In this document: positions 3,004-33,305 of the stretch, piece after piece
Layout of the letters: every line of letters begins with the position of its first letter
How positions within the stretch are numbered: position 1 is the stretch's first letter
Assembly: GCA_947572725.1 (NCBI GenBank)
Contig: CANPDB010000015.1
Span: 1 to 35,993 of the forward strand
Length of the DNA stretch: 35,993 nucleotides
From: an uncultured Clostridium sp.
GTDB lineage: Bacteria; Bacillota; Clostridia; TANB77; CAG-508
Direction: 5' to 3'
Notes under the pieces: generated by a model
Databases searched by the model: none
Told to the model about the DNA's origin: nothing
The model's input: the letters and a program-made list of their open reading frames with translations, nothing else
Position numbers and translations under genes: made by a program

Positions 3004-3163
3004 AGAAATAGGAAATCTTGACGATATAATAATGGATTTAGAATATGAATTGAACGAAAAAAATCATACAGAAGATAAAAAAAGATTAATAGATAATATT
3101 ATTGAAAGGTATGCAAGGTTAAGGCAAGAATTAATAGAAATGGAGAAATTAAAAAATGATTAA
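2984..3163 (+). CDS. Small coiled-coil-like protein
   Basis: The predicted protein is 59 aa. ATG 2984 is chosen because GAGGAGG lies ten bases upstream; the in-frame ATG at 2966 has none. The sequence is almost entirely charged helix with leucine and isoleucine at heptad-like spacing (LDDIIMDLEYELNEK, LIDNIIERYARLRQELIEME), so a short coiled coil or helical hairpin is likely. It overlaps both neighbours by a few bases. A similar helical peptide follows at 3614. Function is unknown. Confidence 0.65.
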   Translation: MKQLINKEIGNLDDIIMDLEYELNEKNHTEDKKRLIDNIIERYARLRQELIEMEKLKND

Positions 3164-11395: not shown

Positions 11396-11471
11396 TGGTC
11401 GAGGTGACAGGGATCGAACCTGCGACCTCATGGTCCCAAACCACGCGCGCTACCAACTGCGCTACACCTCG
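11396..11471 (-). tRNA. tRNA-Pro (anticodon TGG)
   Basis: The minus strand folds into a full cloverleaf: acceptor CGAGGTG/CACCTCG, D stem GCGC/GCGC, anticodon loop TTTGGGA with TGG, T arm with TTCGATC, and discriminator A. The CCA end is encoded (TGG at 11396-11398 on the plus strand). The 3' end faces the mobile region, which makes it a plausible integration target. It has its own promoter and a terminator. Confidence 0.96.
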
Positions 11472-11607: not shown

Positions 11608-11684
<77 letters not shown>

Positions 11685-15686: not shown

Positions 15687-15888
15687 ATTACAGTTCACGC
15701 TTAATAATCTTAAATAGCGCGAAGGAGTTCTATATTTTAATATTTTGTAGTGAAATTGTGGGGACCGTTCAAAAATCCTCAAAAGTTCTATGAACTTTTG
15801 TTATGATTTTTAGAATGGGGATAACGAAAAAAATATTAAAATATAAACTCCTGGGAGCGAGTAGATATTTTTAAATGTGAACTGTAAT
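15687..15888 (-). ncRNA. Candidate structured RNA element, copy A
   Basis: The outer helix pairs ATTACAGTTCAC (15687-15698) with GTGAACTGTAAT (15877-15888). The second helix pairs 15724-15746 with 15830-15851 over 22 bp with one bulge. The inner hairpin pairs AAAAATC (15771-15777) with GATTTTT (15805-15811), and CAAAAGTTC (15780-15788) with GAACTTTTG (15792-15800), triloop. Read on the minus strand, the joining segments contain ACTCGCTCCCAG, CCCCATTCTAAAAAT, ATTTTTGAACGGTC and TTCGCGCTATT, nearly identical to copy B at 33074. It lies between two convergent genes. It may instead be a mobile palindromic repeat. Confidence 0.7.
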
Positions 15889-15895
15889 TTATAAT

Positions 15896-18394
15896 TTACT
15901 CACTCATAAGTTCAGGACTATCACTCAAAATTTTATCAACAATATTCTGTTTCAAATTAAAAGGTTGTACATATCCATATAAAGACTTAGCCTTTTCTCT
16001 TAGAGCCATACAATCTTCATTTACATATATCTTTGCTTTGCCCTTTCCATTTTTAGCCTCTTGAACTAAATTTGCAACTGGTGAATTTCCAGTAAAAGCA
16101 ATAACAATGGACTCTCTGCGTTCAAATATTTCATAATTAAAACTTTTATAAATTCCTAATTCTTCACTTTCTGTTGAAATACGAATACCTTTTATTTGTT
16201 TTTCTAATAATCTATTCATAACTTCTTTTGATATCATTTTAGGTATAATCGCATCAATTTCAAACTTTTTATTATATTTTTTTACTATCTCTATTAATGC
16301 TTTCTCATACCCCTCTACTTGATGGCCTATTACAAAATATGCTTTTTTTGGATTTAACTTTTGTACTAAATCTACTAATAACCTCTCCCCTTCCGGAAGT
16401 AGTTTTGTAGTCTTGTCTTTTGAGTTAAAACTTCCTCCCGCAATTATAATAGGCATCTTATCTTCTGGTAACTTTTTAATTTTATCTTTTAAAACTCTTT
16501 CTGAATCTAGCTTTAAGTTAATTCTTAAATTTGTAGTTAAATTGCTTGCTTTTTTTGTATTATCTTCTTCTAATTTTAAAATTGCTTCTCTAATTGTTCT
16601 TCCATCTAAAAACTTTTCAAATTGCTTTTGTTTTATTTCAAAATATCTTTTACTATCTTTTATTATCTCATCTTCCACTTTAACCATTTTTGCTAAGTCA
16701 TGTTCATCTAATCCTATTAAATTACTTAATGCTAACTGCTCCTCAATTGTATCAACACCATAAAATCCACATCCATCTGTACCTTGAACACATTTTATAT
16801 CAGCATCTAAATATTTTTTAAGTGGATGCCTATCTAATGAATTCAAATTATTTAGTCTAACATTTGAAGTTATTTGAAACTCTAAAACTGCACCAGAAGA
16901 CTTTATTTCATTTATTAATATTTTTCCTTTTTCTGAATCTAAGCTAGGTGTATATAATCCATGTCCTATTCTAATTTTAGGAATTTTATATCCTTCTGGT
17001 ACCGCTTCTTTTACACATTGAATTGACTTTAAGACATTGTCTCTTAAGCTATCATTCTCTCCTGCGTGAATTCTAATTGTAAAATACTTATCTTCTAAAG
17101 TTGCATATTCCACCAATTCTTTAATTACTGGACTTAATTCACTAATATCATTAATTTCCTCACCTATAAAGTCACTTCCAACGACATATGGACTTTTAGC
17201 TACTGCCTTAATAACATCTAAATTTTCCCTTAAATATGTTTCACTTGTTTTTTGGTCTTTAATAATTGTTAAAGGTATTCTTCTAATGGCTGCCAAAAAC
17301 CTTATAGCCACACCTGTTTCCTTTTCTATTTTAGGCATTACTTCATGCACTTCTTCTAAAAACTCAATAGCAGGAATTCCTAATTTAACTAAATCTGTAT
17401 TAGCTATTTCTGTATACATTATTCCTTGTTTTTGATATTCTCTTGCTATCCATAATAATTTATCTTGTCTTAAATTATTTTTTTCATATTGACTGTCTTT
17501 TTTATGATCTTCTATCATTTTTTTAACATAATTTGCAATATCTTTTTCTGGTATTTGGTTTATTTTTTCCTTATTTAAACTAATTTTATCTTCACTTTTT
17601 ATTCCTTTTGCAAATATATAACGATAAAGATATACTTTTTCTAAATTTGTAAAAACTGCTTGCCCATCTTTTAGAATTGCTAAACTTGTTCTAATTTTTG
17701 CAATATTGTATTCTGCATTATCAAGATTATTTAAAATAAAATCGGCAAAATTAATAAATGTATTGTCATCTATCCTTCTTGTTAAATATTTTCCTTTTAA
17801 CTCTGAAAACTCAAATTGTTTCTCTACCTCTTTTCTTTGCTTCATCATCTTTTCTTCTTGACTACTTGTCATCTTTAGGTTTAGTTTCTTTATGTAGTAC
17901 AATGGATATCTTAATTGATGCACAATACCAAGTGCAATCAAAATATCAGGCGAAAGATTAGCATTCATATGTGTATGTAAATCTGTCTTAAACTTATATT
18001 TTTTTAAAATATATGATTTAACAATAGTCTTTTCTATTGGTAATTCATAATCTTTAGTTTGTGACATTAAAGTTTTTGCAATAGCTGGTATCTTTGCTTT
18101 AATTTCCACCCTTCCATCTTGATAAATATTAGCAATTTTAATTCCACCTAGCCTAAATATATATACAATTTCATTATCTCCATTAATACTTGCAGGTATA
18201 ATTCCTTTTATAATTTTCATATCATTTTCATCTTTTACAGTTTTTACTCCACATAACTCTGCCAAATTAGTAATTAAATTTCCTGTATTATGATTAGGTG
18301 TCCTTAATATATAGACAATTTCATCTTCATTATCTTGATATAATTCTACAATAATATCTTTTTCTTTATCTAAATGAAATTTATTTAATAACAT
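15896..18394 (-). CDS. Adenosine-deaminase-like protein with SLOG-like C-terminus
   Basis: The protein is 832 aa, more than twice a normal adenosine deaminase. Residues 1-130 match nothing I recognise. The deaminase part (about 135-570) keeps the zinc and catalytic set: HTH (140-142), IRIHAGEND (His443, Glu446), IGHG (His478) and GTDGCG (Asp540). A roughly 150-residue insertion separates HTH from the rest. Residues about 645-800 look like a SLOG/LOG nucleotide-binding fold (IIIAGGSFNSKD, AYFVIGHQVEGYEKALIE, VIAFTGNSPVANLVQEA). SLOG domains bind nucleotide-derived ligands in phage-defence systems, so a ligand-controlled purine deaminase is possible. RADAR RdrB is also a large deaminase, but no RdrA ATPase is nearby. 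Domain calls are by eye. Confidence 0.8.
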   Translation of the reverse strand: MLLNKFHLDKEKDIIVELYQDNEDEIVYILRTPNHNTGNLITNLAELCGVKTVKDENDMKIIKGIIPASINGDNEIVYIFRLGGIKIANIYQDGRVEIKAKIPAIAKTLMSQTKDYELPIEKTIVKSYILKKYKFKTDLHTHMNANLSPDILIALGIVHQLRYPLYYIKKLNLKMTSSQEEKMMKQRKEVEKQFEFSELKGKYLTRRIDDNTFINFADFILNNLDNAEYNIAKIRTSLAILKDGQAVFTNLEKVYLYRYIFAKGIKSEDKISLNKEKINQIPEKDIANYVKKMIEDHKKDSQYEKNNLRQDKLLWIAREYQKQGIMYTEIANTDLVKLGIPAIEFLEEVHEVMPKIEKETGVAIRFLAAIRRIPLTIIKDQKTSETYLRENLDVIKAVAKSPYVVGSDFIGEEINDISELSPVIKELVEYATLEDKYFTIRIHAGENDSLRDNVLKSIQCVKEAVPEGYKIPKIRIGHGLYTPSLDSEKGKILINEIKSSGAVLEFQITSNVRLNNLNSLDRHPLKKYLDADIKCVQGTDGCGFYGVDTIEEQLALSNLIGLDEHDLAKMVKVEDEIIKDSKRYFEIKQKQFEKFLDGRTIREAILKLEEDNTKKASNLTTNLRINLKLDSERVLKDKIKKLPEDKMPIIIAGGSFNSKDKTTKLLPEGERLLVDLVQKLNPKKAYFVIGHQVEGYEKALIEIVKKYNKKFEIDAIIPKMISKEVMNRLLEKQIKGIRISTESEELGIYKSFNYEIFERRESIVIAFTGNSPVANLVQEAKNGKGKAKIYVNEDCMALREKAKSLYGYVQPFNLKQNIVDKILSDSPELMSE

Positions 18395-18516
18395 ATATTT
18401 TCCTGCACAATATATTTAATAAATTAAATACACTATGCTCTCCCTTCTTTATCTAATTTTAATGATTATATCATAATATTTTATTTTTTGCCATATATTG
18501 ATATGGGGTGTTTTTA

Positions 18517-19635
18517 TTGTTTATTCAGACTATTAAAATAAGTAAAAAATTAATTATATTTATAACAATTTTAGCTTTTATAACAACCTCTGTTATTGTG
18601 TTTTATTCTTTGGCAAATGATGGTTCTAATAGTACAGAAATAAAAGAAGAAGATAAAAAAGATTTTATTAAATGGGTTGATTTTAATATTACAGCTGATT
18701 TGTTGAATAAAACTGCAAAATTAGATATTGACTCACATAATAAAAATTCTGATATTCAATATAATTGGATTGAACTTTTAGCATATTTAGCTTGTAAAAA
18801 TGGTGGTAATTTTAAAAACTTTAAACAAAATGATTTAGATAAATTATTAGAGGAATTAAAAAAAGGCAAAACTATAGAAGAATTAACAAAAGATAATAAA
18901 TATTATTCTTATTACTATGAAAGCTATTCTGCAGCTTTAGATGGGTTTATTGGGAACTACACTATAGAAACCAAAACAGAACCAAAAACAGAAATGGAAA
19001 CAAAATTAAATTCAAGTTCAAATTCGGATTTAAATTCAAATTTAGAATTAGCAGAGTCAAACACAGAAGCAGAAAACAAAACCAAAACCACTGAAGAAAA
19101 GTATGGTCTAAAAGCTTTTTTACCTATTGCTAAAAATTATGGATTTAGCCATTATGATGACTTTGGAAACAGCAGGTCTTATGGTTTTAAAAGAATCCAT
19201 TTAGGAAATGACTTAATGGGAAGTATAGGAACTCCAATTATAGCAGTAGAAGGTGGTACCATTGAGCACTTAGGCTGGAATCAATATGGTGGTTGGAGAA
19301 TAGGTATTAGAAGTGAAAATAAAAAACGATATTACTACTATGCTCATTTAAGAAAAGACCATCCATATGCTGAAGGACTTAAAGAAGGTGATACTGTGGA
19401 AGCAGGAGATGTTATTGGATACCTTGGCATGACAGGATATAGTACAAAAGAAAATGTAAATAACATCAATGTCCCACACTTACACTTTGGCATGCAACTA
19501 ATATTCGACGAATCACAAGTAGATAGTAATAATGAAATCTGGATTGATGTTTATCAAATTATAGAATTTTTAAAGAAAAATCGTTCAGAAGTTTATATGT
19601 CCAATAAAGAAACTAAAGACTATTCTAGAAAATAA
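18517..19635 (+). CDS. Membrane-anchored M23 peptidase
   Basis: The predicted protein is 372 aa from TTG 18517, for which GGGGTG is well placed; a GTG at 18508 is the alternative. In the longer numbering, a membrane helix lies at residues 14-33, then a helical domain, then a low-complexity linker rich in T, E, K and N. The LytM/M23 domain spans about 205-335. Zinc ligands are visible: HLGND (His231, Asp235), YYAH (His280) and PHLHF (His324, His326). Such enzymes cut peptidoglycan peptide bridges outside the membrane. The ligand set is complete, so it is likely active. It is divergent from the deaminase-like gene. Confidence 0.9.
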   Translation: MFIQTIKISKKLIIFITILAFITTSVIVFYSLANDGSNSTEIKEEDKKDFIKWVDFNITADLLNKTAKLDIDSHNKNSDIQYNWIELLAYLACKNGGNFKNFKQNDLDKLLEELKKGKTIEELTKDNKYYSYYYESYSAALDGFIGNYTIETKTEPKTEMETKLNSSSNSDLNSNLELAESNTEAENKTKTTEEKYGLKAFLPIAKNYGFSHYDDFGNSRSYGFKRIHLGNDLMGSIGTPIIAVEGGTIEHLGWNQYGGWRIGIRSENKKRYYYYAHLRKDHPYAEGLKEGDTVEAGDVIGYLGMTGYSTKENVNNINVPHLHFGMQLIFDESQVDSNNEIWIDVYQIIEFLKKNRSEVYMSNKETKDYSRK

Positions 19636-19656
19636 TTTTAAAGATTAAAAAAATTG

Positions 19657-19906
19657 TTACTTATAGGCTTGTCCTCTGTTGTCAACCTTTATGACTAAAA
19701 TAATAAGTTCATTTTGATTTAATTCATAAATAATGCGATAATCGCCGAACTCGAAGTCTATATTCATTTTTACAACCTACCATTTTCTTTATATCGCCAC
19801 TTGGCAGGTTGTAAATTGATTTGTAAATTCGTAATCTTTGAATTTTGTCTTGCTTTTCAATAAATTTGAGAGCTTTGGGTCTAATTTTTATCTTGTAAAT
19901 CATCAT
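19657..19906 (-). pseudogene. RelE/ParE-family toxin with a frameshift
   Basis: The frame from ATG 19906 encodes a RelE-like start (MIYKIKIRPKALKFIEKQDK, then KNEYRLRV) but stops early at 19724 as RRLSHYL. In the next frame the expected ending continues: GDYRIIYELNQNEL, then ILVIKVDNRGQAYK, to a stop at 19657-19659. One extra base in CGAGTTCGGCGATTATCGC explains it; the restored product would be 82 aa, normal for RelE. RelE toxins cut mRNA at the ribosome. The catalytic C-terminal strands lie after the shift, so the product is probably inactive, unless this is a sequencing error. It overlaps the antitoxin gene by 26 bases. Confidence 0.85.
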
Positions 19907-20177
19907 AGGTCAACCCCTCTCTTTGTAAAATTTCTTCAAAAGATACTGCATTTTTTAACTCTTTTTCTTTAGTATCTTTGCTTTCTGTTAAATAGTCTAA
20001 ATACATTACTTTTTCTGTAATATCCATGTTTTCTAAAATGACAGTAGGCTCTAATCGTAATAGTTCAGAATCAATGGCTTTTTCCATTAGAATTTTAATA
20101 GAGTTTAAGCATTCTGTATTAAGTCTTGGTGTCATTTTTATAACATCTTTAATTGCTTGAATTTGTGCTTCAGACAT
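19881..20177 (-). CDS. Antitoxin of the RelE-type pair
   Basis: The protein is 98 aa, with AAAGGAG before the ATG on the minus strand. Its position, its overlap with the toxin, its small size and an acidic C-terminal segment (SFEEILQREGLTYDDLQDKN) fit an antitoxin. The tail with EEILxxxGLTYDDL is similar to ends of antitoxins that wrap around RelE/ParE toxins. The N-terminal half is unusual: no clear ribbon-helix-helix or HTH was recognised, only helical segments (IKDVIKMTPRLNTECLNSIKI). It may therefore lack DNA-binding ability or use an unfamiliar fold. With the toxin frameshifted, it may persist as an orphan or protect against related toxins. Confidence 0.75.
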   Translation of the reverse strand: MSEAQIQAIKDVIKMTPRLNTECLNSIKILMEKAIDSELLRLEPTVILENMDITEKVMYLDYLTESKDTKEKELKNAVSFEEILQREGLTYDDLQDKN

Positions 20178-20269
20178 GTTAATCAGCTCCTTTCTTTTTT
20201 ATTGTAAGTATATTATAGCAAGTTAGAAGTAGATTTACAAGATTAAAAGGCTTTAAATCTATGATAAAA

Positions 20270-20297
20270 TTGCCATTTAAACCCGGAACTGATGGCA
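20270..20297 (-). repeat. Hairpin repeat downstream of htrA, copy 1
   Basis: On the minus strand the sequence reads TGCCATCAGTTCCGGGTTTA followed by AATGGCAA. The ends pair (TGCCAT/ATGGCA) and ATTTTAT follows, so it can act as a weak terminator of htrA. The loop GTTCCGGGTTTAAA and most of the 28 bases recur at 29135-29163. Confidence 0.75.
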
Positions 20298-20302
20298 CAA
20301 TT

Positions 20303-21451
20303 CTATTTTTTACCTAATACTAATGTTATTTCTTTATTTATCTTTCCTCTTCTAATTTGCATTATAACTTGCTCACCAGGCTTCTTAGTATAAACATATT
20401 CTCTTAAATCATTCATAGTATTTAATTCTCTAGAATCTATACTTGAAATAATATCTCCCTCTTTTAATTCTGTATTATCTGCTGGTCCATTTTTTGTAAT
20501 TTGCGCAACATAAATTCCTTTTTCTAATTGAAGATTAGAATTAGAACCAGAATTAGAATTCAAGTATGGTACAACTTCTTTGTCATAAGCATAAATTCCA
20601 ATTGTTGCTTCTTGAAAGTCTTCTGTATTTTTTAGGCTTTCTACAATCGGCTTAACAATATTAATTGGAATTGCAAATCCTATTCCTTCTGCAGATGATA
20701 TTTTTACCGTATTTATTCCTATTACTTGTCCATTAGGATATATTAAAGGTCCCCCACTGTTTCCTGGATTAATTGTTGCATCTGTTTGAATAAGGTCTGT
20801 CATATATGATGATTTGTTTTCTTCTTCTAATTTTATTGTTCGATTTTTGGCACTTATAATTCCTGACGTTACTGTCCTTCTAAATTCAAATCCTATTGGA
20901 TTTCCTATTGCATATACTGTTTCTCCAACTCGTATTTTACTTGAATCTCCTAATTCAACATATTTTAAATTTTTTGCATTTATTTTTGTAATTGATAAAT
21001 CTAAGTCTGTATCACTCCATACTACTGTTCCATCATAGTTGCTTCCATTTTCCAATGTGATATAACATTTACTAAATTTACTTCCAGTAACATGTTCATT
21101 ACTTAAAATATATCCATTCTCACTTACAATAATTCCTGTGCCTAGTCCTAATTCATTTTCTGTGCTTTTTGATAGTATTGTGCTTCCCGCATTTTTTAAT
21201 TTTGAAATTCCTACTACCTTCTCTGTTGTTTCTTCAATTACATCTGCTACCTTTTTGCTATTCTCTTCTTCACTTTCCACAGTTTGTTCTTTAATTGTGG
21301 ATTGCACTTTTTCTGTTTCGTAAGTTTCTTCTTTTGTTTCTATTTCATTATATGTAGCATACATATAAAATCCTAATATCCATAAAATGATAATTGTTCC
21401 AAATATAATTAATATTCTTTTTGATTTGCTTTGTTTTACTCTTCTTTTCAA
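20303..21451 (-). CDS. HtrA/DegP-like membrane-anchored serine protease
   Basis: The protein is 382 aa. An N-terminal membrane helix (about 12-32) anchors it, followed by an acidic linker, a trypsin-like domain (about 85-275) and one PDZ domain (about 300-380). The catalytic triad is visible: His120 (LSNEHV), Asp149 (TDLDLS) and Ser232 (NPGNSGGP). Such proteases degrade misfolded proteins outside the cytoplasmic membrane and respond to envelope stress; the PDZ domain (GDIISSIDSRELN) binds exposed C-termini. Its 3' end is followed by the 28-nt hairpin repeat. It is divergent from the NRPS gene. All key residues are present. Confidence 0.95.
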   Translation of the reverse strand: MKRRVKQSKSKRILIIFGTIIILWILGFYMYATYNEIETKEETYETEKVQSTIKEQTVESEEENSKKVADVIEETTEKVVGISKLKNAGSTILSKSTENELGLGTGIIVSENGYILSNEHVTGSKFSKCYITLENGSNYDGTVVWSDTDLDLSITKINAKNLKYVELGDSSKIRVGETVYAIGNPIGFEFRRTVTSGIISAKNRTIKLEEENKSSYMTDLIQTDATINPGNSGGPLIYPNGQVIGINTVKISSAEGIGFAIPINIVKPIVESLKNTEDFQEATIGIYAYDKEVVPYLNSNSGSNSNLQLEKGIYVAQITKNGPADNTELKEGDIISSIDSRELNTMNDLREYVYTKKPGEQVIMQIRRGKINKEITLVLGKK

Positions 21452-21520
21452 AATTTACACCTCTAAAAATATTGTTTCCTAAACATAGTATTTTAAACAT
21501 ATTTTGTTATAATAACTCTA

Positions 21521-21550
21521 TTGACAATTTTAGTTAAAAAACTATATAAT
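21521..21550 (+). promoter_or_regulatory. Promoter of the NRPS operon
   Basis: TTGACA (21521-21526), 18 bp, TATAAT (21545-21550), 35 bases before ATG 21585. TTTAGT and ACTAAA flank the -10 as a small dyad and may be an operator. Confidence 0.8.
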
Positions 21551-21584
21551 TTGACTAAATAATGGAATAAAAGAGGACTTATTT

Positions 21585-24500
21585 ATGGAAAAAAAATTAT
21601 ATAATTTAACAAATTCGCAAAAGAGTATTTGGATGACCGAACAATTTTATAATGGAACTAATATTAATAATATTGTTGGATATTTGAAAATAGATAAAAA
21701 TGCAAATTTTAAAGCTTTAGAACAAGCTTTAAACTATTTTGTAACTAAAAATGATTCTTTCAAGTTAAAAATTCATTTAGATGATTCTTCAATACCAAAA
21801 CAATATATTGATGATTTCATTTATCAAAACATTGAAATTTTAGATTTAAAAGATGATAATCAACTCATTGAATTTGAAAATTCATTTCCTAGACAATGTA
21901 TTAATTTGCTAGATAATTTTCTATTTCTTACAAAACTATTACGTTTTCCTAATGGTAGTGGTATATTAGTATTGTCTGCACATCATTTAATATCTGATGC
22001 TTGGACAATGTCTTTATGCCTTGAAGAAATTTACTCAAATTATATGAAACTTATAAATAATGAAGTAATTAGTACTACTCCAAATCCGTCTTATATTGAA
22101 TATATACTATCTCAAGAAGATTATAAAAACAGTGAAAAATATATAAAAGACGCAGAATTTTGGAAAACTCAGTTTAATAGCTTGCCTAGTGTAATTTCAT
22201 ATAAGAAAAATACAAATATATCAATTAATGCAAACAGAAAAGTATATACAATTTCACCTTATTTGATAAAAAAAATACATTGTTATTGTGAAGAAAATAA
22301 AATTTCTGATTATGTATTTTTGTTAAGTGTATTTAGTATTTATTTTAAAAATGTATTTAACACTAATAACTTTATTATTGGAAATCCAGTTTTAAATAGA
22401 TCAAATTTCAAAGAAAAGAATATGACAGGTATGTTCGTATCAATTATGCCATTCATTATTAATTGTACTGATACAAATTCATTTTCAGAATTTTGTCACA
22501 CAATTGCAAATAATCAAAAACATATGTATCGTCATATTAAATATCCATACCACGAAATACTAAATGATATTAGAAATACTCATAATTTTTCTGATAGTTT
22601 ATATGATATTGTATTTTCTTATCAGAATGCAAGTATACCTTCTTATTGCAAATGGTTGCATAACCATTCTCAAGCAGAATCTTTACAAATACATATAAAA
22701 AATATTGCAGAAGAAAAGAATACACTTGCTATTCATTATGACTATTTAACAGATTTATTTTCTGAACAGGATATAGATTTAATGCACGAAAGAATATTAT
22801 CTATTATAAATCAAGTACTAAAATCTCCTAATATTAACATATCAAATATTGATATTATTTCTAATTTAGAAAAAACGCTTATATTAAAAGAATTTAATAA
22901 TACCTCTTCTGTTTTTAATAAAACCTCTAATATTGTAAAAGAATTTGAGAAAATAGTAGATAAATATCCTAATAATATAGCTGTAATAGATAAAAATACT
23001 TCACTTACATATCGAGAATTAAATTCAAAAGCTAACTTTTTAGCTAAGAAAATTATTGACTCAAATATAAATAGTAATATTATTGCATTTTCGTTAAAAC
23101 GTTCTTCTTCTATTATTATTACTATTTTAGCAATTTTAAAATCTGGTCATACTTATATGCCAATTGATCCAGATTACCCAATTGATAGAATTAATTTTAT
23201 GATAAAAAACAGTTCTTGCAAATTATTAATTTCAACTATTGATTTTTTTGAAAAAGTAAATTGCAAGATGGATTTTATTGATTATAATACTTTATCTTTT
23301 AATAAACATACACCTAATTTAAACATAAAAATAGATTCTAAAAAGCCTTGTTATGTTATGTATACTTCTGGTTCTACTGGTACTCCAAAGGCTGTCACCA
23401 TAATGCATTATAATGTTCTTAATTTTGTTCAAAGTATGCAAGAACATTTGAACTATAAACCAGCACCTGAAAATAAAGTACTATCAGTAACAACGGTCTG
23501 CTTTGATATTTTTGTATTTGAGATTTACCCCACATTACTGTCAGGTCTAACATTAATAATTGCTGATGAACTTGAAAGTAGAAGTCCCCAACTATTAAGT
23601 AGAATTATTAAAAAACATAAAATTTCAAAGCTTCTAACAACTCCTTCAAGAATAGATTTATTATTTTCTGATAGTAGCTATTCAAACGCCTTATCAAGTA
23701 TTAAAGAATTTATTTTAGGAGGAGAGCCATTTCCAAAAACTTTACTTAATAAGTTAAAGACACATACAAAGTCAAAAATATATAACTTATATGGTCCTAC
23801 TGAAACAACAGTATATTCTACATTTAAAGAGCTTACAAATTGTGATAATATTACAATAGGAAAACCAATTAATAATACTCAAGTATATATATTAAATGAT
23901 AATAATAAATTACAACCACTTAACTTAATTGGAGAAATCTGCATAGGTGGCGAAGGTGTTGGAGCTGGATATTATAAAAATCCCGAAAAAACAAATCAAG
24001 TATTTATTCCTAATCCTTATGGAAAAGGTATTTTGTACAAAACAGGAGATCTTGGTTATTGGCAACGAAACGGAGAATTAGTCTGCCTTGGAAGAAAAGA
24101 TTCACAGGTAAAAATACGTGGATATCGTATTGAACTAGATGATATTAGTAATAACATTCTATCTTTTAACAATATCGAGAAATGTGTAGTTGTAGATAAA
24201 ACTGATAAAAATGATAAAAAATACTTATGTGCTTACCTAGTTTCAAAAGAGAAAATTGATATATCAGAATTAAAAAAACATCTAGTAAACATTTTACCTA
24301 ATTATATGATTCCTACTTATTTTATACAGTTAGAAAATCTGCCATTAACTCAAAATCATAAAATTGATAGAAAAGCTTTGCCAGAACCAGATATATCAAA
24401 CCTAATAATTACTACTAAATACGAAAAGCCATTTACTAAATCAGAAAAATCAATATGTAAAGTTTTTAGAGAGTGTTTAAAAATAAATAGAATAGGAATT

Positions 24501-25859
24501 AATGATGATATATTTGATTATAATATTGATTCATTAGATATAATTCGTATTCAAACAAAGCTATTAGAATATAATATAAAATTAAATACACAAGATTTTT
24601 ATAAATATAGAACTATAAAACAATTAGGAGATTTTTTCGAAAATAAAATTAATATTTCAAGCACAGAAATTGATACAAATTATTTAAGTACTATTAATAA
24701 TAGCTTTCATAAACACAACGATATTATTACATATTCAAAACATAAATATTCAAATATATTACTAATAGGTTCCACTGGCTATTTAGGAATTCACCTATTA
24801 GAGGAATTACTAAATACAACAAACGCTCATATTACATGTATAATACGTATTAAGGAAAACGAAAATCCAAAAGAACGATTAGCAAAATTATATAAATTCT
24901 ATTTTAATAAAGATCTTAACCATTCTAGAATAACTGTTATTGACTCAAATATAACTAAAACTAACTTAGGATTAAACAAATCTAATTACAAAAACTTATG
25001 CAACTCAATAGACTTAGTAATTAATACTGCAGCAAATGTTAGATACTATGGAGATTATAACGAATTTAAAAAAATTAATGTAGATTTAGTACAAAATTTA
25101 ATCAACTTATGTAATTCTAATAATATTAAACTTATACATATTTCTACTTTAGGTGTTTCTGGAAACTATCTTGTTAATCATGAAAAAAATTACAATAGCT
25201 TTTGCGAAAATGACTTTTATATTGGACAAAAGTTTGATGAAAATGTTTATATTCAAACTAAATTTGAGGCAGAGAAACTAATTTATGAACAAATTGCTAA
25301 CGGATTGAATGCTTCTATTATTAGAGTTGGAAACTTAACAAGCAGATATTCAGATGGTACTTTCCAAGCAAATTTTGGAGATAACGCATTTTATAATATT
25401 TTAGTTATGATTTTAAAATATCATATTATACCAAATACAATGACTGAAGAATTCTTGGAGTTTACTCCTATTGACTATTGTGCCAAAGCAATTTGTACAC
25501 TTATATCTAATGTTAATATTAATAGATATGTATTTCACATATTTAATAATAATTATATATGTGTTTCAGATTTACTCTCTATATTTGAGGAACTTGGATT
25601 TGAAACAGAAGTATTATCTGGAAATGATTTTAAAGAGAAAATATTATCTTTATCAAATCAATATCCAGAAGAAAACATATTAAAAGGTATTGTTAATGAC
25701 TTGGACGATACTTTAGGTTTAAGCTTTAAGTCCACTGTTAATCAACAAAATCAATATACTAATTCTTATTTAAACAATTTACAATTTATGTGGCCAATTA
25801 TAGATAAAAAATATATAAAGAAAATATCTAACTATTTAAAAAAGAAAAAATATATTTAA
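21585..25859 (+). CDS. Single-module NRPS with reductase release domain (C-A-PCP-R)
   Basis: The protein is 1,424 aa. The condensation domain (about 1-430) has SAHHLISDAW at 131-140, the HHxxxDG motif with Ala for Gly. The adenylation domain (about 450-930) has TSGSTGTPK (594-602), FDIFVFE, YNLYGPTETT, GEICIGGEGVGAGY and the late lysine in NHKIDRKAL. The carrier domain has NIDSLD with Ser983 for phosphopantetheine. The reductase (about 1057-1420) has IGSTGYLG for NAD(P)H and YIQTK for the catalytic Tyr-Lys. By-eye GrsA alignment gives pocket residues D-I-F-L-I-G-L-V-Y-K, which I cannot decode. R-domain release yields an aldehyde or alcohol, so an N-acylated amino aldehyde is the simplest prediction. 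Regulatory genes follow at once. Confidence 0.94.
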   Translation: MEKKLYNLTNSQKSIWMTEQFYNGTNINNIVGYLKIDKNANFKALEQALNYFVTKNDSFKLKIHLDDSSIPKQYIDDFIYQNIEILDLKDDNQLIEFENSFPRQCINLLDNFLFLTKLLRFPNGSGILVLSAHHLISDAWTMSLCLEEIYSNYMKLINNEVISTTPNPSYIEYILSQEDYKNSEKYIKDAEFWKTQFNSLPSVISYKKNTNISINANRKVYTISPYLIKKIHCYCEENKISDYVFLLSVFSIYFKNVFNTNNFIIGNPVLNRSNFKEKNMTGMFVSIMPFIINCTDTNSFSEFCHTIANNQKHMYRHIKYPYHEILNDIRNTHNFSDSLYDIVFSYQNASIPSYCKWLHNHSQAESLQIHIKNIAEEKNTLAIHYDYLTDLFSEQDIDLMHERILSIINQVLKSPNINISNIDIISNLEKTLILKEFNNTSSVFNKTSNIVKEFEKIVDKYPNNIAVIDKNTSLTYRELNSKANFLAKKIIDSNINSNIIAFSLKRSSSIIITILAILKSGHTYMPIDPDYPIDRINFMIKNSSCKLLISTIDFFEKVNCKMDFIDYNTLSFNKHTPNLNIKIDSKKPCYVMYTSGSTGTPKAVTIMHYNVLNFVQSMQEHLNYKPAPENKVLSVTTVCFDIFVFEIYPTLLSGLTLIIADELESRSPQLLSRIIKKHKISKLLTTPSRIDLLFSDSSYSNALSSIKEFILGGEPFPKTLLNKLKTHTKSKIYNLYGPTETTVYSTFKELTNCDNITIGKPINNTQVYILNDNNKLQPLNLIGEICIGGEGVGAGYYKNPEKTNQVFIPNPYGKGILYKTGDLGYWQRNGELVCLGRKDSQVKIRGYRIELDDISNNILSFNNIEKCVVVDKTDKNDKKYLCAYLVSKEKIDISELKKHLVNILPNYMIPTYFIQLENLPLTQNHKIDRKALPEPDISNLIITTKYEKPFTKSEKSICKVFRECLKINRIGINDDIFDYNIDSLDIIRIQTKLLEYNIKLNTQDFYKYRTIKQLGDFFENKINISSTEIDTNYLSTINNSFHKHNDIITYSKHKYSNILLIGSTGYLGIHLLEELLNTTNAHITCIIRIKENENPKERLAKLYKFYFNKDLNHSRITVIDSNITKTNLGLNKSNYKNLCNSIDLVINTAANVRYYGDYNEFKKINVDLVQNLINLCNSNNIKLIHISTLGVSGNYLVNHEKNYNSFCENDFYIGQKFDENVYIQTKFEAEKLIYEQIANGLNASIIRVGNLTSRYSDGTFQANFGDNAFYNILVMILKYHIIPNTMTEEFLEFTPIDYCAKAICTLISNVNINRYVFHIFNNNYICVSDLLSIFEELGFETEVLSGNDFKEKILSLSNQYPEENILKGIVNDLDDTLGLSFKSTVNQQNQYTNSYLNNLQFMWPIIDKKYIKKISNYLKKKKYI

Positions 25860-25910
25860 AAAAACCGAAAATTATTATAAAATAATACTAAAAATAATTA
25901 AGGAGAACCA

Positions 25911-27914: not shown

Positions 27915-27929
27915 ATGCTATCTTACAAA

Positions 27930-27950
27930 TTATTTACTCGCTCACAGAAG
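27930..27950 (+). repeat. Fragment of the structured element (box 1)
   Basis: The segment matches copy B (33109-33129) at 20 of 21 bases, the only change being TCAC for TCCC after ACTCGC. It includes the conserved ACTCGCTC box. Short complementary flanks, ATCTTA (27920-27925) and TAAGAT (27953-27958), could form a small stem around it. The rest of the element is missing, so it is a truncated or minimal copy. Confidence 0.65.
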
Positions 27951-28002
27951 TTTAAGATAATTTTAACTGTACTGTAACTAATAACAAATTTCTACAAATC
28001 TC

Positions 28003-28031
28003 TTGCTTTTTCTCGCATTTACTAATATAAT
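28003..28031 (+). promoter_or_regulatory. Promoter of the response regulator
   Basis: TTGCTT (28003-28008), 17 bp, TATAAT (28026-28031). With 150 bp from the kinase gene, the regulator can be expressed on its own as well as by read-through. Confidence 0.6.
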
Positions 28032-28064
28032 GTAGTCAAATTTAGGTAAAATAGAGGTATTTAT

Positions 28065-29126
28065 ATGAGAATTGGCGTACAAAATGTAGAAAATACAGAA
28101 AATAGAAACTACAAAATAATTGCAGTTGATGACGAAGAAGGTATAATCGATTCATTATCTATTTTCTTAAAAAGGTCTGGATATGACTTTACAGGAGTAA
28201 CTAATCCACAAGAAGCAATTGAAAAAGTAAAAAATGAGCATTTTGATTTAATGATACTAGACTTTATAATGACTCCTTTTCATGGTGACCAAGTAGTTGA
28301 AGAAATTAGAAAATTTAATAATGAACTATATATTTTACTACTAACAGGACATAAAGACTTAGCTCCACCACTAGAGACAATTAGAAGACTTGACATACAA
28401 GGATATTGTGAAAAAAGTGATAAATTTGATCAATTATTATTACTAATTGAATCTGGAATTAAATCTATTGCTCAAATGAATCAAATAAAAAAGATAAATG
28501 ATGAATTAAAAACCACTTATAATTTATTAGAAAAATCATATTTAGAAAGTATAGAAACTTTGCGTTATACTGTTGAAGCAAAAGATACTTATACAAAAGG
28601 ACATTCAGACAGAGTATCAGAATATGCTGTATTAATAGGAAAAAAAGTTGGATTACCAGAAGATGAATTAAAAACTTTACAAATTGGCGGATTATTTCAC
28701 GACATTGGAAAGATTGGGGTTCCAGATACAATATTACAAAAAGAAGCTAAACTAACAGATGATGAATATTCAGAAATTAAAAATCATCCTTCAATTGGTG
28801 CCCACATCTTATCTACTGCAACAATTTTCAAAGAAATTATACCAATTGTAAAACATCATCATGAAAGATACGATGGCCATGGATATCCTAGTCAATTAAA
28901 AGGTGAAGATATACCATATTTAGCAAGAATAACAGCAATTGCAGATACATTTGATGCTATGACTTCTAAAAGAAGTTATCGTGATGCTTTGCCAATGGAA
29001 ACTGTTATTTCAGAATTTGAAAGGTGTAAAGGCACACAGTTTGATTCAAAACTTGCAGATACTTTTTTAGACATTCTAAAAAATAACTTTGATGATATAA
29101 AAGAAATTCAAGAAAAATATAACTAA
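28065..29126 (+). CDS. Response regulator with HD-GYP cyclic-di-GMP phosphodiesterase
   Basis: The protein is 353 aa. The receiver domain (about 15-135) has the acidic pair at VDDEE (22-23) and the phosphoacceptor Asp66 (MILDFIM). A coiled linker (145-165) leads to an HD-GYP domain (about 165-350) with His180 (TKGHSDR), HD at 212-213 (FHDIGKIG), HHHERYDGHGYP (264-275) and AIADTFDAMTS. Such enzymes hydrolyse cyclic-di-GMP to GMP, lowering a signal that favours attachment over motility. The metal and GYP residues are complete, so activity is expected. The paired kinase and NRPS suggest control of cyclic-di-GMP by a small molecule. Confidence 0.95.
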   Translation: MRIGVQNVENTENRNYKIIAVDDEEGIIDSLSIFLKRSGYDFTGVTNPQEAIEKVKNEHFDLMILDFIMTPFHGDQVVEEIRKFNNELYILLLTGHKDLAPPLETIRRLDIQGYCEKSDKFDQLLLLIESGIKSIAQMNQIKKINDELKTTYNLLEKSYLESIETLRYTVEAKDTYTKGHSDRVSEYAVLIGKKVGLPEDELKTLQIGGLFHDIGKIGVPDTILQKEAKLTDDEYSEIKNHPSIGAHILSTATIFKEIIPIVKHHHERYDGHGYPSQLKGEDIPYLARITAIADTFDAMTSKRSYRDALPMETVISEFERCKGTQFDSKLADTFLDILKNNFDDIKEIQEKYN

Positions 29127-29134
29127 TTAAAAAA

Positions 29135-29163
29135 TTGCCACTGGTTCCGGGTTTAAATGGCAA
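29135..29163 (+). repeat. Hairpin repeat downstream of the HD-GYP gene, copy 2
   Basis: TTGCCACTGGTTCCGGG is followed by TTTAAATGGCAA; the ends pair TTGCCA/TGGCAA. It matches copy 1 at 25 of 28 positions and lies on the sense strand nine bases after the stop codon. Confidence 0.75.
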
Positions 29164-29192
29164 CTAAATCCGAAATTAGTAGCAACTTTTTT
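29160..29192 (+). terminator. Terminator after the HD-GYP gene
   Basis: GCAACTAA (29160-29167) pairs with TTAGTAGC (29176-29183), one mismatch, and AACTTTTTT follows. Its left arm overlaps the end of the hairpin repeat, so the two stems compete, which could make termination conditional. Confidence 0.65.
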
Positions 29193-29196
29193 ATTC

Positions 29197-31380
29197 TTAA
29201 ACTTTCATTGAAAGCCCAACTTTTTGTCTTTCTTTATCAATCTTAATTACTTTAACTTTAACAATATCACCTACTGAAACAACTTCTGAAGGATTTTTAA
29301 TAAACTTATCACTCATTTCAGAAATATGTACTAAACCATCATGTTTTACACCAATATCGACAAAAGCACCAAAATCTATTACATTTCTTACTGTTCCCGT
29401 CAAAACCATTCCCTCTTTTAAATCTTCTAATTTCAATACATCACTACGCAAAATTGGCTTTGGCATATCTTCACGAGGGTCTCTTCCCGGTTTTGAAAGC
29501 TCTTCTATAATGTCTGATAAAGTCATTTCTCCTACATTTAACTCTTTTGACATATTAGCTACATTTACACTTTTTAACTTATTTCTTAATTCAATTAGTT
29601 TTTCTTTATCTTTTAAATCTTCTTTATTAAATCCTAAATTAGCAAGTAAACTTTCTGCAACTTCATAACTTTCAGGGTGAACTGCTGTAACTTCTAATGG
29701 GTTGTCTCCATCTAATATCCTTAAGAAACCAGCACATTGCTCAAATGCTACTTTTCCTAGCTTTGGAACTTTTAACAATTGTTTTCTATTTTTTAATTTT
29801 CCGTTTTCATCTCTATATTTAACAATGTTTTTTGCTATTGAATTGTTAATTCCAGAAACATAAGATAAAAGTGAAGGTGTTGCAGTGTTTACATCTACTC
29901 CAACTTTATTAACGCTATCCTCTACTACTCCTGTAAGACTTTCTGCTAATCTCTTTTGATTTACATCATGTTGATATTGTCCAACTCCTATTGCTTTTGG
30001 ATCAATTTTTACTAATTCTGCTAAAGGATCTTGAAGTCTTCTTGCTATTGAAATTGCCCCTCTTATTGATACATTTATATCTGGATATTCTTCTGTTGCA
30101 AGCTTAGAAGCAGAATAAACAGATGCTCCCGCTTCACTAACGATTACATAATGAACTTGTCTTGAAGTATCTTTTATCATATCTGCAACAAACATTTCAG
30201 ACTCTCTTGAAGCAGTACCATTACCAATTGCAATCATATCAATTTTGTCTTTTTCAATTAATTTTAGAAGCTCTTTTTTAGCACCTTCTACATCATTTTG
30301 AGGCTCTGTTGGATATACAGTTGTATAATCTAAAACTTTTCCAGTTTCATCAATAACAGCAATTTTACAACCAGTTCTATAAGCTGGGTCAAATCCCATT
30401 ACTGTTTTGCCTTTTATAGGTGCACCTAATAATAATTGTTTAGAATTTTGCCCAAAAACTTTAATTGCCTTTTCTTCTGCTTTTTCTGTTAAGTCTGAAC
30501 GAATTTCTCTATCAATTGATGGCTCTATTAGTCTTTTAAAGCTATCTTCAATTGTTGTTTTTAGCATTTCGGTAAATTGTGTTTCACCTTTTATTATATC
30601 TTTTTCAATGTATAATAAAATTTTATCTTCTGGCTTTTCTAGTTTAACCTTTAAAAATTCCTCTTTTTCCCCACGATTAATAGCTAAAATTCTATGACTT
30701 GGAATATATTTAATAGCTTCACTATATTCATAATACATTTCATAGTTTGACTTTTCTTCTGGCTTAGAAGCTTTTGTTTCAATTAAACCTTCTCTATAAC
30801 ATTGTCTTTTTATTTCTTTTCTATATTTTGCATTGTCTGAAATATCTTCTGCAATAATATCTAAAGCTCCTTGAATTGCATCTTCTGCTGTTTCTACCAC
30901 CTTGTCTTTATTCTTTTTATCTTCATCAGAAAGTGAATCAACATTAATATATTGTTTTGCAATATCATTAATTGGCTTTGTTTCTTTTTGTTCAATAATA
31001 ATTTGTGCTAAAGGCTCTAATCCTTTTGCTTTAGCAACTGTTGCTCTTGTTTTCTTCTTTTGTTTATATGGTCTATAAATATCTTCCACTTCTGCTAAAG
31101 TTTTAGCTATTGCAACAGCTTGTAAAATCTCATCTGTTAATTTGCCTTGTTCATCTATAGATTTTATAACTTCTTCTTTTCTTTGCTCTAAGTTTCTTAA
31201 ATAATTTAACCTCTCGCCTAAATCCCTAAGAGTTTCATCACTTAAACCACCTGTTACTTCTTTTCTATAACGAGCAATGAATGGAATTGTGTTTCCTTCA
31301 TCAATTAGTTTAATTGTATTTTCTACTTGTGATTGCTTAATGTTTAATTCTTCTGCAATTGTTTTTATTATTTTATCCAT
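29197..31380 (-). CDS. tex: Tex-family RNA-binding transcription accessory protein
   Basis: The protein is 727 aa, the normal Tex length. In order it has the N-terminal helical part (IKTIAEELNIKQSQVENTI, FIARYRKEVTGGLSDE), a YqgF-like fold (VMGFDPAYRTGCKIAVID), helix-hairpin-helix repeats (TPSLLSYVSGINNSIAKNIV, LLKVPKLGKVAFEQCAGFL) and a C-terminal S1 domain (about 650-727: VLTGTVRNVIDFGAFVDIG, DGLVHISEMSD). Tex binds nucleic acids, is conserved in most bacteria and influences transcription and stress responses. It lies 34 bases after the ABC-F gene and is probably in one operon with it. No defect is visible. Confidence 0.97.
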   Translation of the reverse strand: MDKIIKTIAEELNIKQSQVENTIKLIDEGNTIPFIARYRKEVTGGLSDETLRDLGERLNYLRNLEQRKEEVIKSIDEQGKLTDEILQAVAIAKTLAEVEDIYRPYKQKKKTRATVAKAKGLEPLAQIIIEQKETKPINDIAKQYINVDSLSDEDKKNKDKVVETAEDAIQGALDIIAEDISDNAKYRKEIKRQCYREGLIETKASKPEEKSNYEMYYEYSEAIKYIPSHRILAINRGEKEEFLKVKLEKPEDKILLYIEKDIIKGETQFTEMLKTTIEDSFKRLIEPSIDREIRSDLTEKAEEKAIKVFGQNSKQLLLGAPIKGKTVMGFDPAYRTGCKIAVIDETGKVLDYTTVYPTEPQNDVEGAKKELLKLIEKDKIDMIAIGNGTASRESEMFVADMIKDTSRQVHYVIVSEAGASVYSASKLATEEYPDINVSIRGAISIARRLQDPLAELVKIDPKAIGVGQYQHDVNQKRLAESLTGVVEDSVNKVGVDVNTATPSLLSYVSGINNSIAKNIVKYRDENGKLKNRKQLLKVPKLGKVAFEQCAGFLRILDGDNPLEVTAVHPESYEVAESLLANLGFNKEDLKDKEKLIELRNKLKSVNVANMSKELNVGEMTLSDIIEELSKPGRDPREDMPKPILRSDVLKLEDLKEGMVLTGTVRNVIDFGAFVDIGVKHDGLVHISEMSDKFIKNPSEVVSVGDIVKVKVIKIDKERQKVGLSMKV

Positions 31381-31414
31381 TGTTTCTTCCTCTTTCCATA
31401 TGTTTATTCGACAT

Positions 31415-32998
31415 TTATTCTATTCCCAAATATTCATTATATGTTATTTCCCTATCAACTATTTTTCCATCTTGTTTAATATCTATAATCCTATTTGCAA
31501 CTGTTTGAGTCAATTCGTGATCATGTGATGTAAATATAAGATTTCCTGTGAATTTTTTCATTCCTTCATTTAAAGCTGTAATACTTTCCATATCTAAATG
31601 GTTTGTTGGCTCATCAAATATTAAAAAGTTTGCTCCTGATAGCATTATTTTTGAAAGTACACATCTTACCTTTTCTCCTCCTGATAAGACATTTACTTCT
31701 TTTAATGCTTCATCTCCTGAGAATAACATTCTTCCCAAAAAGCTTCTTACGTATGTTTCGTCAGGATCTTTTGAATATTGTCTAAGCCATTCTGTAATTG
31801 ATTCGTTTGATTCAAATAAATAATTGTTATCTTTAGGAAAATACTCACTTGTAATAGTTGTTCCCCATACTAATTCTCCTTCATCTGGCTCTATTTCTCC
31901 TGCTATAATTTGGAATAATATAGTTTTTGCATTTTCATTATCTGCTAAAAATGCTATTTTATCATTTGATTTTATATCAAATGATACATTATCCAATAAT
32001 TTTACTCCTTCTACTGTTTTTGAAATATTTTTCACTTGTAAAATTTCTCTTCCTGGGTCTCTATCAGGTTTAAAGTCTATGTATGGATATTTTCTGTTTG
32101 ATGGTTTTATTTCATCTAACTCAATTTTCTCAAGTGTCTTTTTCCTAGATGTAGCTTGTTTTGATTTTGAAGCATTTGCACTAAATCTTGCTATAAAGTC
32201 TTGCAATTCTTTAATTTTTTCTTCTTTTTTCTTGTTTTGTTCTCTTGCTTGTTTTAATGCTAATTGACTTGATTCATACCAGAAGTCATAATTTCCCGGA
32301 TATACTTTTATCTTTCCAAAGTCAACATCTGCAATATGTGTACAAACTTTGTTTAAAAAATATCTATCATGTGATACTACAATAACTGTATTTTCAAAAT
32401 CCATTAAGAAGTCTTGTAACCAATTAATACTCTTTAAATCTAAGTCATTTGTAGGCTCATCTAATAATAAAACATCTGGATTTCCAAATAAAGCTTGTGC
32501 TAATAATACTTTAACCTTGTCCTTTGCTTCAATTTCTTTCATTAATTTGTAATGATTTTCCGGAATAATACCTAAATCATTTAAAAGTATTGCTGCATCT
32601 GACTCTGCATTCCATCCGTCTAATTCCGCAAATTTTTCTTCTAATTTTGCAGCTTTCATTCCGTCTTCTTCTGAAAAGTCAGGTTTTGCATATATTTCTT
32701 CTTTTTCTTTCATAATGTCGTATAATTCTTTATTTCCCATCATAACTGTATCTATAACTGTAAATTCTTCAAAAGCAAAGTGGTCTTGTTTTAGAACTGA
32801 TAATCTTTCTCCTTTGTCTAAAGTTACATCACCTTTACTTGGTTCTAATTCTTTTGAAAGTACTTTTAAAAATGTTGATTTACCTGCTCCATTTGCTCCG
32901 ATAATTCCATAGCAGTTACCCTTTCCGAATTTTATATTTACATCTTCAAATAATACTCTTTTCCCAAATCTTACTGTTACTCCATTTGCACTTAACAT
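31415..32998 (-). CDS. ABC-F ATPase, YbiT-type
   Basis: The protein is 527 aa with two ATP-binding cassettes and no membrane domain. The first has GANGAGKST, LSGGE-like helices and LLLDEPTNDLD; then the ABC-F linker (FSANASKSKQATSRKK) and the second cassette with LSGGEKVRCVLSKIM and LIFDEPTNHLDMES. The order matches E. coli YbiT and its Firmicute relatives, which act at the ribosome. In the second cassette the Walker A is degenerate: FLADNENAKTILF instead of GxNGxGKST, the lysine alone kept, so that site may bind nucleotide weakly. AAGGAGG precedes the ATG; the promoter is at 33025-33053. Tex follows in the same operon. Confidence 0.94.
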   Translation of the reverse strand: MLSANGVTVRFGKRVLFEDVNIKFGKGNCYGIIGANGAGKSTFLKVLSKELEPSKGDVTLDKGERLSVLKQDHFAFEEFTVIDTVMMGNKELYDIMKEKEEIYAKPDFSEEDGMKAAKLEEKFAELDGWNAESDAAILLNDLGIIPENHYKLMKEIEAKDKVKVLLAQALFGNPDVLLLDEPTNDLDLKSINWLQDFLMDFENTVIVVSHDRYFLNKVCTHIADVDFGKIKVYPGNYDFWYESSQLALKQAREQNKKKEEKIKELQDFIARFSANASKSKQATSRKKTLEKIELDEIKPSNRKYPYIDFKPDRDPGREILQVKNISKTVEGVKLLDNVSFDIKSNDKIAFLADNENAKTILFQIIAGEIEPDEGELVWGTTITSEYFPKDNNYLFESNESITEWLRQYSKDPDETYVRSFLGRMLFSGDEALKEVNVLSGGEKVRCVLSKIMLSGANFLIFDEPTNHLDMESITALNEGMKKFTGNLIFTSHDHELTQTVANRIIDIKQDGKIVDREITYNEYLGIE

Positions 32999-33024
32999 AT
33001 TTTCTCCTCCTTACAACTTTTAGA

Positions 33025-33053
33025 ATTATACATTATATTGGCTTATTTTTCAA
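33025..33053 (-). promoter_or_regulatory. Promoter of the ABC-F/tex operon
   Basis: On the minus strand: TTGAAA (complement of 33048-33053), 17 bp, TATAAT (complement of 33025-33030), 27 bases before the start codon. The structured element lies just upstream and is not part of the leader. Confidence 0.8.
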
Positions 33054-33073
33054 GTATATAATGGTAATCCTAT

Positions 33074-33305
33074 AAAAATCCCAATAATATTATAGTTTAT
33101 TTTTTAAGTTATTTACTCGCTCCCAGAAGGTGATAATTATATATTTTTTCGCTGCCCCATCCTAAAAATTCTATAGAAAAGTTTTTTAAACTTTTCTAAG
33201 AATTTTTGGACGGTCACCCCGGAGTCGCTCAAAAAGTATCTAGTTATAACCTTGTTCGCGCTATTCTTAATTACTAAAATAAACTATAATATTATTGGGA
33301 TTTTT
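33074..33305 (+). ncRNA. Candidate structured RNA element, copy B
   Basis: The outer helix is a perfect 30-bp inverted repeat (33074-33103 with 33276-33305). The second helix (about 33127-33149 with 33228-33250) contains two T-G pairs that are stable only as RNA on the plus strand. The inner hairpin pairs AAAAATTCT (33164-33172) with AGAATTTTT (33199-33207) and AGAAAAGTTT (33175-33184) with AAACTTTTCT (33188-33197). Joining segments contain ACTCGCTCCCAG, CCCCATCCTAAAAAT, ATTTTTGGACGGTC and TTCGCGCTATT, as in copy A, while the helices differ. It lies between DUF378 and the ABC-F promoter. A mobile repeat is the alternative. Confidence 0.72.

Follow-up and report, generated by a model that had tools for sequence, protein, structure and literature searches.

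What are the two palindromic elements, here called copies A and B, that lie about 17 kb apart in a contig of an uncultured Clostridium sp.? The window, that is, the whole 35,993-nucleotide stretch that was analysed, is contig C15 (CANPDB010000015.1) of a draft genome, G000, of 1.955 Mb and 87.9% completeness. The original prediction left two possibilities, a structured noncoding RNA or a palindromic mobile element. The mobile half of it stood, on the strength of more than 100 copies, target duplications, presence and absence at individual sites and exchangeable ends; the RNA half did not, there being no Rfam match and very few G-U pairs or one-sided changes. With a probability of roughly 0.86, the elements are non-autonomous mobile DNA resembling miniature inverted-repeat transposable elements (MITEs), with a conserved fold, and they most likely form an undescribed MITE-like family that is moved in trans. 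Mobility is shown by copy number, intergenic position, target duplications and the presence or absence of elements at given sites; the reading as a whole rests on copy number, duplications and site polymorphism together with near-perfect Watson-Crick arms and an internal loop, loop 2, that is kept.

A dispersed palindromic family

Both copies are present with helices that pair, and the four joining segments that they were predicted to share were each located without mismatch. The features of the window are as follows; end types and core types are described below, and bit scores are those of model R1.

15687-15888, minus strand: copy A, palindromic element with type-A-like ends (ATTACAGTTCAC...) and a long-type core (159.5 bits)
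15851-15862, minus strand: copy A loop-1 5' box, ACTCGCTCCCAG (sequence match without mismatch)
15806-15820, minus strand: copy A loop-2 5' box, CCCCATTCTAAAAAT (sequence match without mismatch)
15763-15775, minus strand: copy A loop-2 3' box, TTTTTGAACGGTC (sequence match without mismatch)
15713-15723, minus strand: copy A loop-1 3' box, TTCGCGCTATT (sequence match without mismatch)
27936-27978, plus strand: third copy, degenerate, without its interior, with one mismatch in box 1 and a type-A-like right end (model E-value 0.21 only)
33074-33305, plus strand: copy B, palindromic element whose outer arms, ~30 bp long (AAAAATCCCAATAATATTATAGTTTA...), are specific to this copy, with a long-type core (134.1 bits)
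33115-33126, plus strand: copy B loop-1 5' box, ACTCGCTCCCAG (sequence match without mismatch)
33155-33169, plus strand: copy B loop-2 5' box, CCCCATCCTAAAAAT (sequence match without mismatch)
33203-33215, plus strand: copy B loop-2 3' box, TTTTTGGACGGTC (sequence match without mismatch)
33255-33265, plus strand: copy B loop-1 3' box, TTCGCGCTATT (sequence match without mismatch)

Folded as single-stranded DNA, copy B reaches a z-score of −9.8 and copy A one of −7.7, and none of 200 dinucleotide shuffles equals either. The element had been thought to exist in two copies. Besides the degenerate copy near 27936, however, box 1 (ACTCGCTCCCAG, at most one mismatch) has 103 matches in the window's genome, or one per ~19 kb, versus 0 for the reversed control. 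Ninety-eight distinct copies were read. A crude, automatic sorting by motif assigned 44 to a long-interior class, that of the window copies, and 34 to a short-interior class (AGGCTCCCCCAAGTAATTCC...CCTCCT). The remaining 20 include long-type cores that missed the sorting motif by a base change, along with degenerate or deleted copies. Intact elements measure ~155-290 bp and have no coding capacity. From the outside in, they consist of outer arms, loop 1 (ACTCGCTCCCAG / CTTCGCGCTATT), helix P2, loop 2 (CGTTATCCCCATT / AACGGTCCCCACAA...CAC) and helix P3, and they are predicted to fold into one long hairpin with two asymmetric internal loops. In L009 and L036 a further insert beginning CAAAACCAAGATTTTCTAAACAAGCTTGCTTG lies inside the interior of long-type cores. 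Overlap by more than 60 nt with a called open reading frame (ORF) of at least 70 aa was seen for 0 of 79 copies in the window's genome and for 4 of 74 in other genomes.

The covariance-model search of clostridial genomes proposed in the original prediction recovered the family widely, within a single genus: under strict filters, a model built from 45 cores matched 34 of 112 genomes, G000 included, all in one of 14 genera. Plain box 1 (at most one mismatch) occurs in 15 of 55 genomes including G000, the other 14 holding one to three matches each. Among the stretches fetched, those from G022 contained three copies, one of them partial, and G021 supplied one with other helices; the box-1 matches in six of ten fetched stretches of relatives (L094, L096-L100) were put down to chance. 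A loop-2 pattern run over GTDB contigs found at least 93 stretches. The 80 titled matches among those listed are metagenome-assembled genomes (MAGs) of gut type, labelled Clostridia, Clostridiaceae or Clostridium sp., and several of the MAG names include rabbit ('Lapin'), chicken, goat or buffalo. In the pattern-found relatives, P2 and P3 are replaced wholesale, and loop 1 is frequently replaced too.

To avoid the bias of the loop-2 pattern, a separate count was made of pattern-free relatives, those found by the model and not through a sequence pattern (17 rows, left from 19 once L199 and L200 were removed for their closeness to rows on which the model was trained). Their loop-2 boxes are identical at 125/133 and 173/187 positions (93-94%), compared with 766/1257 in paired columns (61%), and only 41/98 positions of the loop-1 5' box are kept. 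Thus loop 2, and not loop 1, is the part conserved across species, and the view that both loops are conserved had to be corrected.

Rfam, in which an exact match to a known family would have spoken against the original prediction, returned no match at the gathering score, and sub-threshold matches (for copy B, mostly to miRNA models) fell far below the cut-offs, so a known RNA family was rejected. Carriage by phages or plasmids was likewise set aside: copy B, the only copy tried, had no match in 50,697 phage and 72,556 plasmid records, the box pattern had 0 matches in IMG/VR, and the loop-2 pattern found two stretches there, GC-rich and chance-like. No paper naming the palindromic repeat family appeared in the literature searched, whose coverage excludes most subscription papers.

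The genus also has a second repeat family (L104-L110, L112 and L149, in other genomes and in G000) with conserved loops of its own, GGCCCCTCTCAAA / TTTGAGATTCTCCCA; L104, L105, L106, L109, L110 and L149 are flanked by inverted REP-like hairpins such as GTGACAAGAGGGGCGTCCCTTTTTGTCAC. Two elements of G021, L095 (at the same place as L103) and L114, carry loop 1 of the main family and the inner loops of the second within one hairpin, and modules seem to be exchanged between the two families.

Ends, insertion sites and change in place

Target duplications flanking the outer arms, named in the original prediction among the signs of a MITE, were found around type A ends. These ends (GTTACAGTTCAGA) are bordered by 8-bp direct repeats: over 39 copies with recognisable ends, 204 of 312 flanking positions match, compared with 126.9 ± 8.3 for re-paired flanks (z 9.3; maximum 161 in 5000), and 7 of the 39 copies have exact repeats. 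Other repeat lengths (5, 6, 7, 9 and 10 bp) give a z of at most 2.5. Type A ends are also found around other interiors and as bare pairs (L135, L141), and they occur in another species (L202, with GAAGCTTC at both sides). Type B ends (TATGGCAATCGCTTAAAATTTAATT...) have repeats of about 9 bp, on weaker evidence. For 16 two-ended copies z is ~5, with several lengths from 7 to 11 and several offsets nearly as good; the length of ~9 bp, which is not sharply resolved, comes from single copies (L053 and L054 with 9/9, others with 8/9) and from the position of a TTG. In a third group, to which copy B belongs, the long outer arms of each copy are complementary to each other and have no good match in any other copy; some cores are flanked by inverted REP-like hairpins (L204, L245). 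The ends are exchangeable, several types occurring on the same kind of core, which bears out the suggestion of an element without fixed ends.

Occupied and empty sites were compared among relatives. At the site of copy B, the genomes aligned in detail (G019, G022 and G024) lack the element; the filler between the genes differs among relatives, so that the insertion point is known approximately. At the site of copy A, relatives matched on one side only. In a trio of close relatives, CANQNU, G022 and G083, whose DNA is 89-96% identical, one CANQNU element is missing from both G022 and G083. Another is present in CANQNU and G083 and missing from G022 and G000, and its flanks, AATTTTTTG/AACTTTTTG, sit within a longer duplication of ~27 bp. 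At a third site, where CANQNU has element L255, the core is inverted in G022 (L351) and G083 (L354, near 2900-3150; truncated) relative to CANQNU, as expected from recombination or template switching between the palindrome arms. A stretch of ~867 bp in CANQNU (L245:6961-7827), holding one element and an adjacent short reading frame, is missing between aligned flanks in G022, G083 and G000.

How resident copies change was followed in two ortholog pairs, L228/G083 and L222/L252, in which 13 of 15 changed predicted pairs are one-sided (6/7 and 7/8). One of the two two-sided changes fails to keep the pair, and some of the changed pairs lie in flanking hairpins. A further pair, L255/L351 (9 two-sided, 32 one-sided), was set aside because its core is inverted between the two. 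Judging from these two pairs, resident copies seem to decay, with pairing enforced while elements spread.

Type B ends have a distinct position relative to promoters. Among 56 type B end matches in the loci of this genome (examples in G000 are L012, L014, L053, L054 and L058), in 20 the 9-bp target repeat ends in TTG (positions 7-9), compared with 0-4 that have TTG at each other listed offset; a −10-like hexamer lies 31-39 nt outside the end in 24, and 14 show both features. On a stricter count, TATAAT, TATACT or TAGAAT falls at 32-39 nt in 22 of the 56 and in at most 5 in any other 8-nt bin. For 96 type A ends that bin holds 1, and the highest bins, with 8 and 9, lie at 48-63. The G022 copies L091 and L092 resemble the type B arrangement. 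Judging by sequence context, the insertion point of type B elements appears to be the −35 box of promoters, where the TTG of the repeated target together with a flanking ACA would restore TTGACA-N17-TATAAT. Neither window copy is of type B. This apparently promoter-sparing branch is directly testable.

The orientation of the elements is also biased with respect to their neighbours. In tandem gene pairs the plus strand reads in the same direction as the genes in 36 of 51 cases in the window's genome (p = 0.005) and in 29 of 45 in other genomes (p = 0.07), these counts using 78 of 79 and 69 of 74 copies. A bias towards the majority coding strand of the locus was not found (53/98). The orientation bias could reflect polarity, replication or an RNA effect, and it leaves room for an effect on transcripts.

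Base pairing and alternative explanations

The pairing was examined in 45 cores, 43 from this genome and two from G022 (rows L111, L049 and L077 were dropped between alignment A1, with 48 rows, and A2, with 45). Standard pairs fill 97.9% of 1705 pair cells, and pairing falls to 37-54% when the partner is shifted by 1-3 columns. Cells changed on both sides number 165, compared with 40.5 ± 6.1 in shuffles (0/500 as high), counts that are not independent events since the copies are kin; one-sided changes that keep the pair number 13, nine of them in one column pair. That the helices change and still pair, as originally noticed, is thus real covariation, and it fits a DNA palindrome.

Alignments A3 and A4 were fitted to the model structure, which favours pairing. 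In 47 cores (45 from this genome, two from G022) the predicted pairs comprise 1644 Watson-Crick, 7 G-U, 17 A-C and 19 others. For 83 unique elements of other genomes, mostly found by pattern (95 rows, 87 after removal of opposite-strand duplicates, 83 after removal of identical ones), P2 and P3 together give 2842 Watson-Crick, 14 G-U, 9 A-C and 18 others in 2883 cells (P2: 1415, 8, 6 and 11; P3: 1427, 6, 3 and 7), at a mean identity of 76% in paired and 83% in unpaired columns. Two T-G pairs had been taken to favour RNA on the plus strand. Set by set, G-U and A-C counts (7 vs 17, 14 vs 9 and, in the 17 pattern-free rows, 5 vs 0) show no consistent strand preference, and that argument falls. 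An RNA helix with turnover this high is expected, from general experience, to show many G-U pairs; covariation running through G-U on one strand was not found, apart from a small lean in that direction in the 17 pattern-free rows.

Several observations weigh against mobile DNA. No autonomous partner turned up in 298 loci of at least 2 kb, Y1 being the one transposase family searched for. Strongly copy-specific outer arms are carried by 12 of 83 copies, copy B among them; copy B and L083, viewed by eye, have no clear duplication; and the left arm pairs best with its own right arm in only 33 of 83, arms being shared among many copies. For further pair types, one of the measures of covariation, the value of 32 stands against 30.5 in shuffles (147/500 as high). 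Pooled over genomes, the plus strand runs the same way as both flanking genes in 65 of 96 tandem pairs (65 vs 31, p = 0.0007), a bias that a neutral MITE does not predict, and the 17 pattern-free relatives, with 5 G-U and 0 A-C in 675 cells, lean slightly towards a plus-strand RNA. These last two points also favour a structured noncoding RNA of the genus, trans-acting or part of transcripts, dispersed in many copies and acting via its loops, as do the conservation of loop 2 alongside covarying helices and the lack of any copy inside an ORF in the window's genome. We nevertheless consider such an RNA very improbable, given the missing Rfam match, the balance of G-U and A-C pairs in the two larger sets, the target duplications and site polymorphism that show mobility, and the ortholog pairs, in which resident copies changed mostly one-sidedly (13/15).

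As to the partner, one inverted type A end pair 0.6-4 kb apart was found in the 298 loci (L039; 1.0 kb, flanks 6/8), and the only ORFs that it encloses are two of 95 and 81 aa. Copies of insertion sequences (IS) are often lost from draft genomes. Y1 transposases are encoded in 45 of 55 genomes examined. G000 has two Y1 genes, and no element ends were seen in the 3.5-kb stretch around either. A link to RAYT had been suggested by a 24-bp match close to a Y1 gene of G021; the match falls within the coding sequence of that gene and was judged to be chance.

Two variants of the mobile reading differ in how the arms arise. According to one, the mobile unit is the core, a hairpin that lands in the middle of other palindromes (REP pairs, terminators, MITEs), and the outer arms would thus be those of the target. 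The same kind of core does occur within type A ends, type B ends, REP-like pairs (L204, L245) and copy-specific arms, and G083 has a single REP-like hairpin where the CANQNU core sits between two. However, this is the one informative site, G022 has no REP-like hairpin there, and the type A duplication of 8 bp lies outside the outer arms, so that arms and core moved together in those copies; we regard the variant as unlikely. The other, which we hold to be doubtful, is that template switching in replication, rather than selection, keeps the arms complementary, selection acting on the loop alone. Arm homogenisation and spacer inversion are among the results of template switching between inverted repeats described in the portions of PMC8604942 and PMC8794818 drawn on here. 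The opposite core orientation at one site in CANQNU and G022/G083 agrees with this, as does the excess of two-sided over one-sided changes. Against it, the changes in L228/G083 (6/7) and L222/L252 (7/8) are mostly one-sided, some of them in flanking hairpins, and conversion is therefore not frequent in resident copies.

For a MITE-like family moved in trans, transposases encoded elsewhere would act on the outer ends. The fold would matter as DNA, in the form of a hairpin or cruciform, for example on single-stranded DNA in replication or transposition; copies that pair well would spread, and resident copies would then decay. A protein, either a transposase or a host factor, may recognise loop 2; the persistence of the loop through exchanges of helices and ends would then be accounted for. 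A bolder version, possible but held only tentatively, places the identity of the element in its fold: a protein would read the C-rich loop 2 (TCCCCATT / AACGGTCCCCACAA) in hairpin or cruciform DNA, helices, outer loop and terminal repeats would be swapped between unrelated mobilisation systems, the loop core would persist across the genus, and one branch would insert exactly at the −35 box and leave the promoter whole. Helix covariation commonly counts as strong evidence that an RNA is functional. In this family the covariation is strong but carries little of the G-U signature, and the DNA is mobile, which calls for caution when RNAs are sought in AT-rich gut genomes. The family also offers a way to find a protein that perhaps recognises DNA by its fold.

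Elsewhere in the window, an AbiEii toxin-like and AbiEi-like antitoxin gene pair (11780-13233) adjoins two tRNA genes (11399-11471 and 11608-11681), and positions 21585-25859 encode a 1424-aa protein resembling nonribosomal peptide synthetases, with condensation, AMP-binding, carrier and terminal reductase domains.

Relation to known mobile repeats

Bacterial MITEs, as characterised in part of PMC10969869 (a definition is also given in PMC3049150), are short, AT-rich and geneless, with terminal inverted repeats, target duplications, high copy number and strong folding, and the family shares all of these traits. It has many copies without coding capacity, is polymorphic at orthologous sites and makes a target duplication of fixed length, clear at 8 bp for type A and about 9 bp for type B. 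Terminal inverted repeats common to many copies are present in types A and B and not in the 12 of 83 copies with strongly copy-specific arms, and no parent IS with matching ends occurs in the loci scanned. Unlike MITEs so characterised, the family keeps an asymmetric internal loop across species while helices and ends are replaced, and its cores, all of a kind, bear several end types that are unrelated to one another.

The pneumococcal BOX, RUP and SPRITE repeats, in the account that part of PMC3049150 gives of them, are intergenic, hairpin-forming and thought to be mobilised in trans, all of which holds for our family. BOX is modular as well, but as a string of boxA-boxB-boxC, whereas the modules here are nested loops in one hairpin; the two were compared by description only. 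REP and REPIN sequences, with their RAYT transposases and GTAG and CGTC tags (PMC3733652 and PMC6006769, each in part), are palindromes with conserved unpaired motifs, as are our elements, and REP-like pairs flank some of the family's cores. A REP, however, is a palindrome of 20-40 bp, with a RAYT gene flanked by the same repeat; the elements are ~200 bp long, their ends are not near the Y1 genes of G000, and ends of types A and B give target duplications. IS200/IS605-type transposition is not known to make target duplications. In the Bacillus cereus group, bcr1 is a dispersed mobile repeat of ~150 bp with a predicted structure and a 5-bp flanking duplication. Set beside it by description only, our family is likewise a dispersed, structured mobile repeat of Firmicutes, with a duplication of 8 or ~9 bp instead. 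Among these systems the family works like a MITE, sharing most of the defining traits in its type A and type B copies, and it stands out by a hairpin of nested, exchangeable parts that keeps an asymmetric loop, and by a branch that appears to spare promoters.

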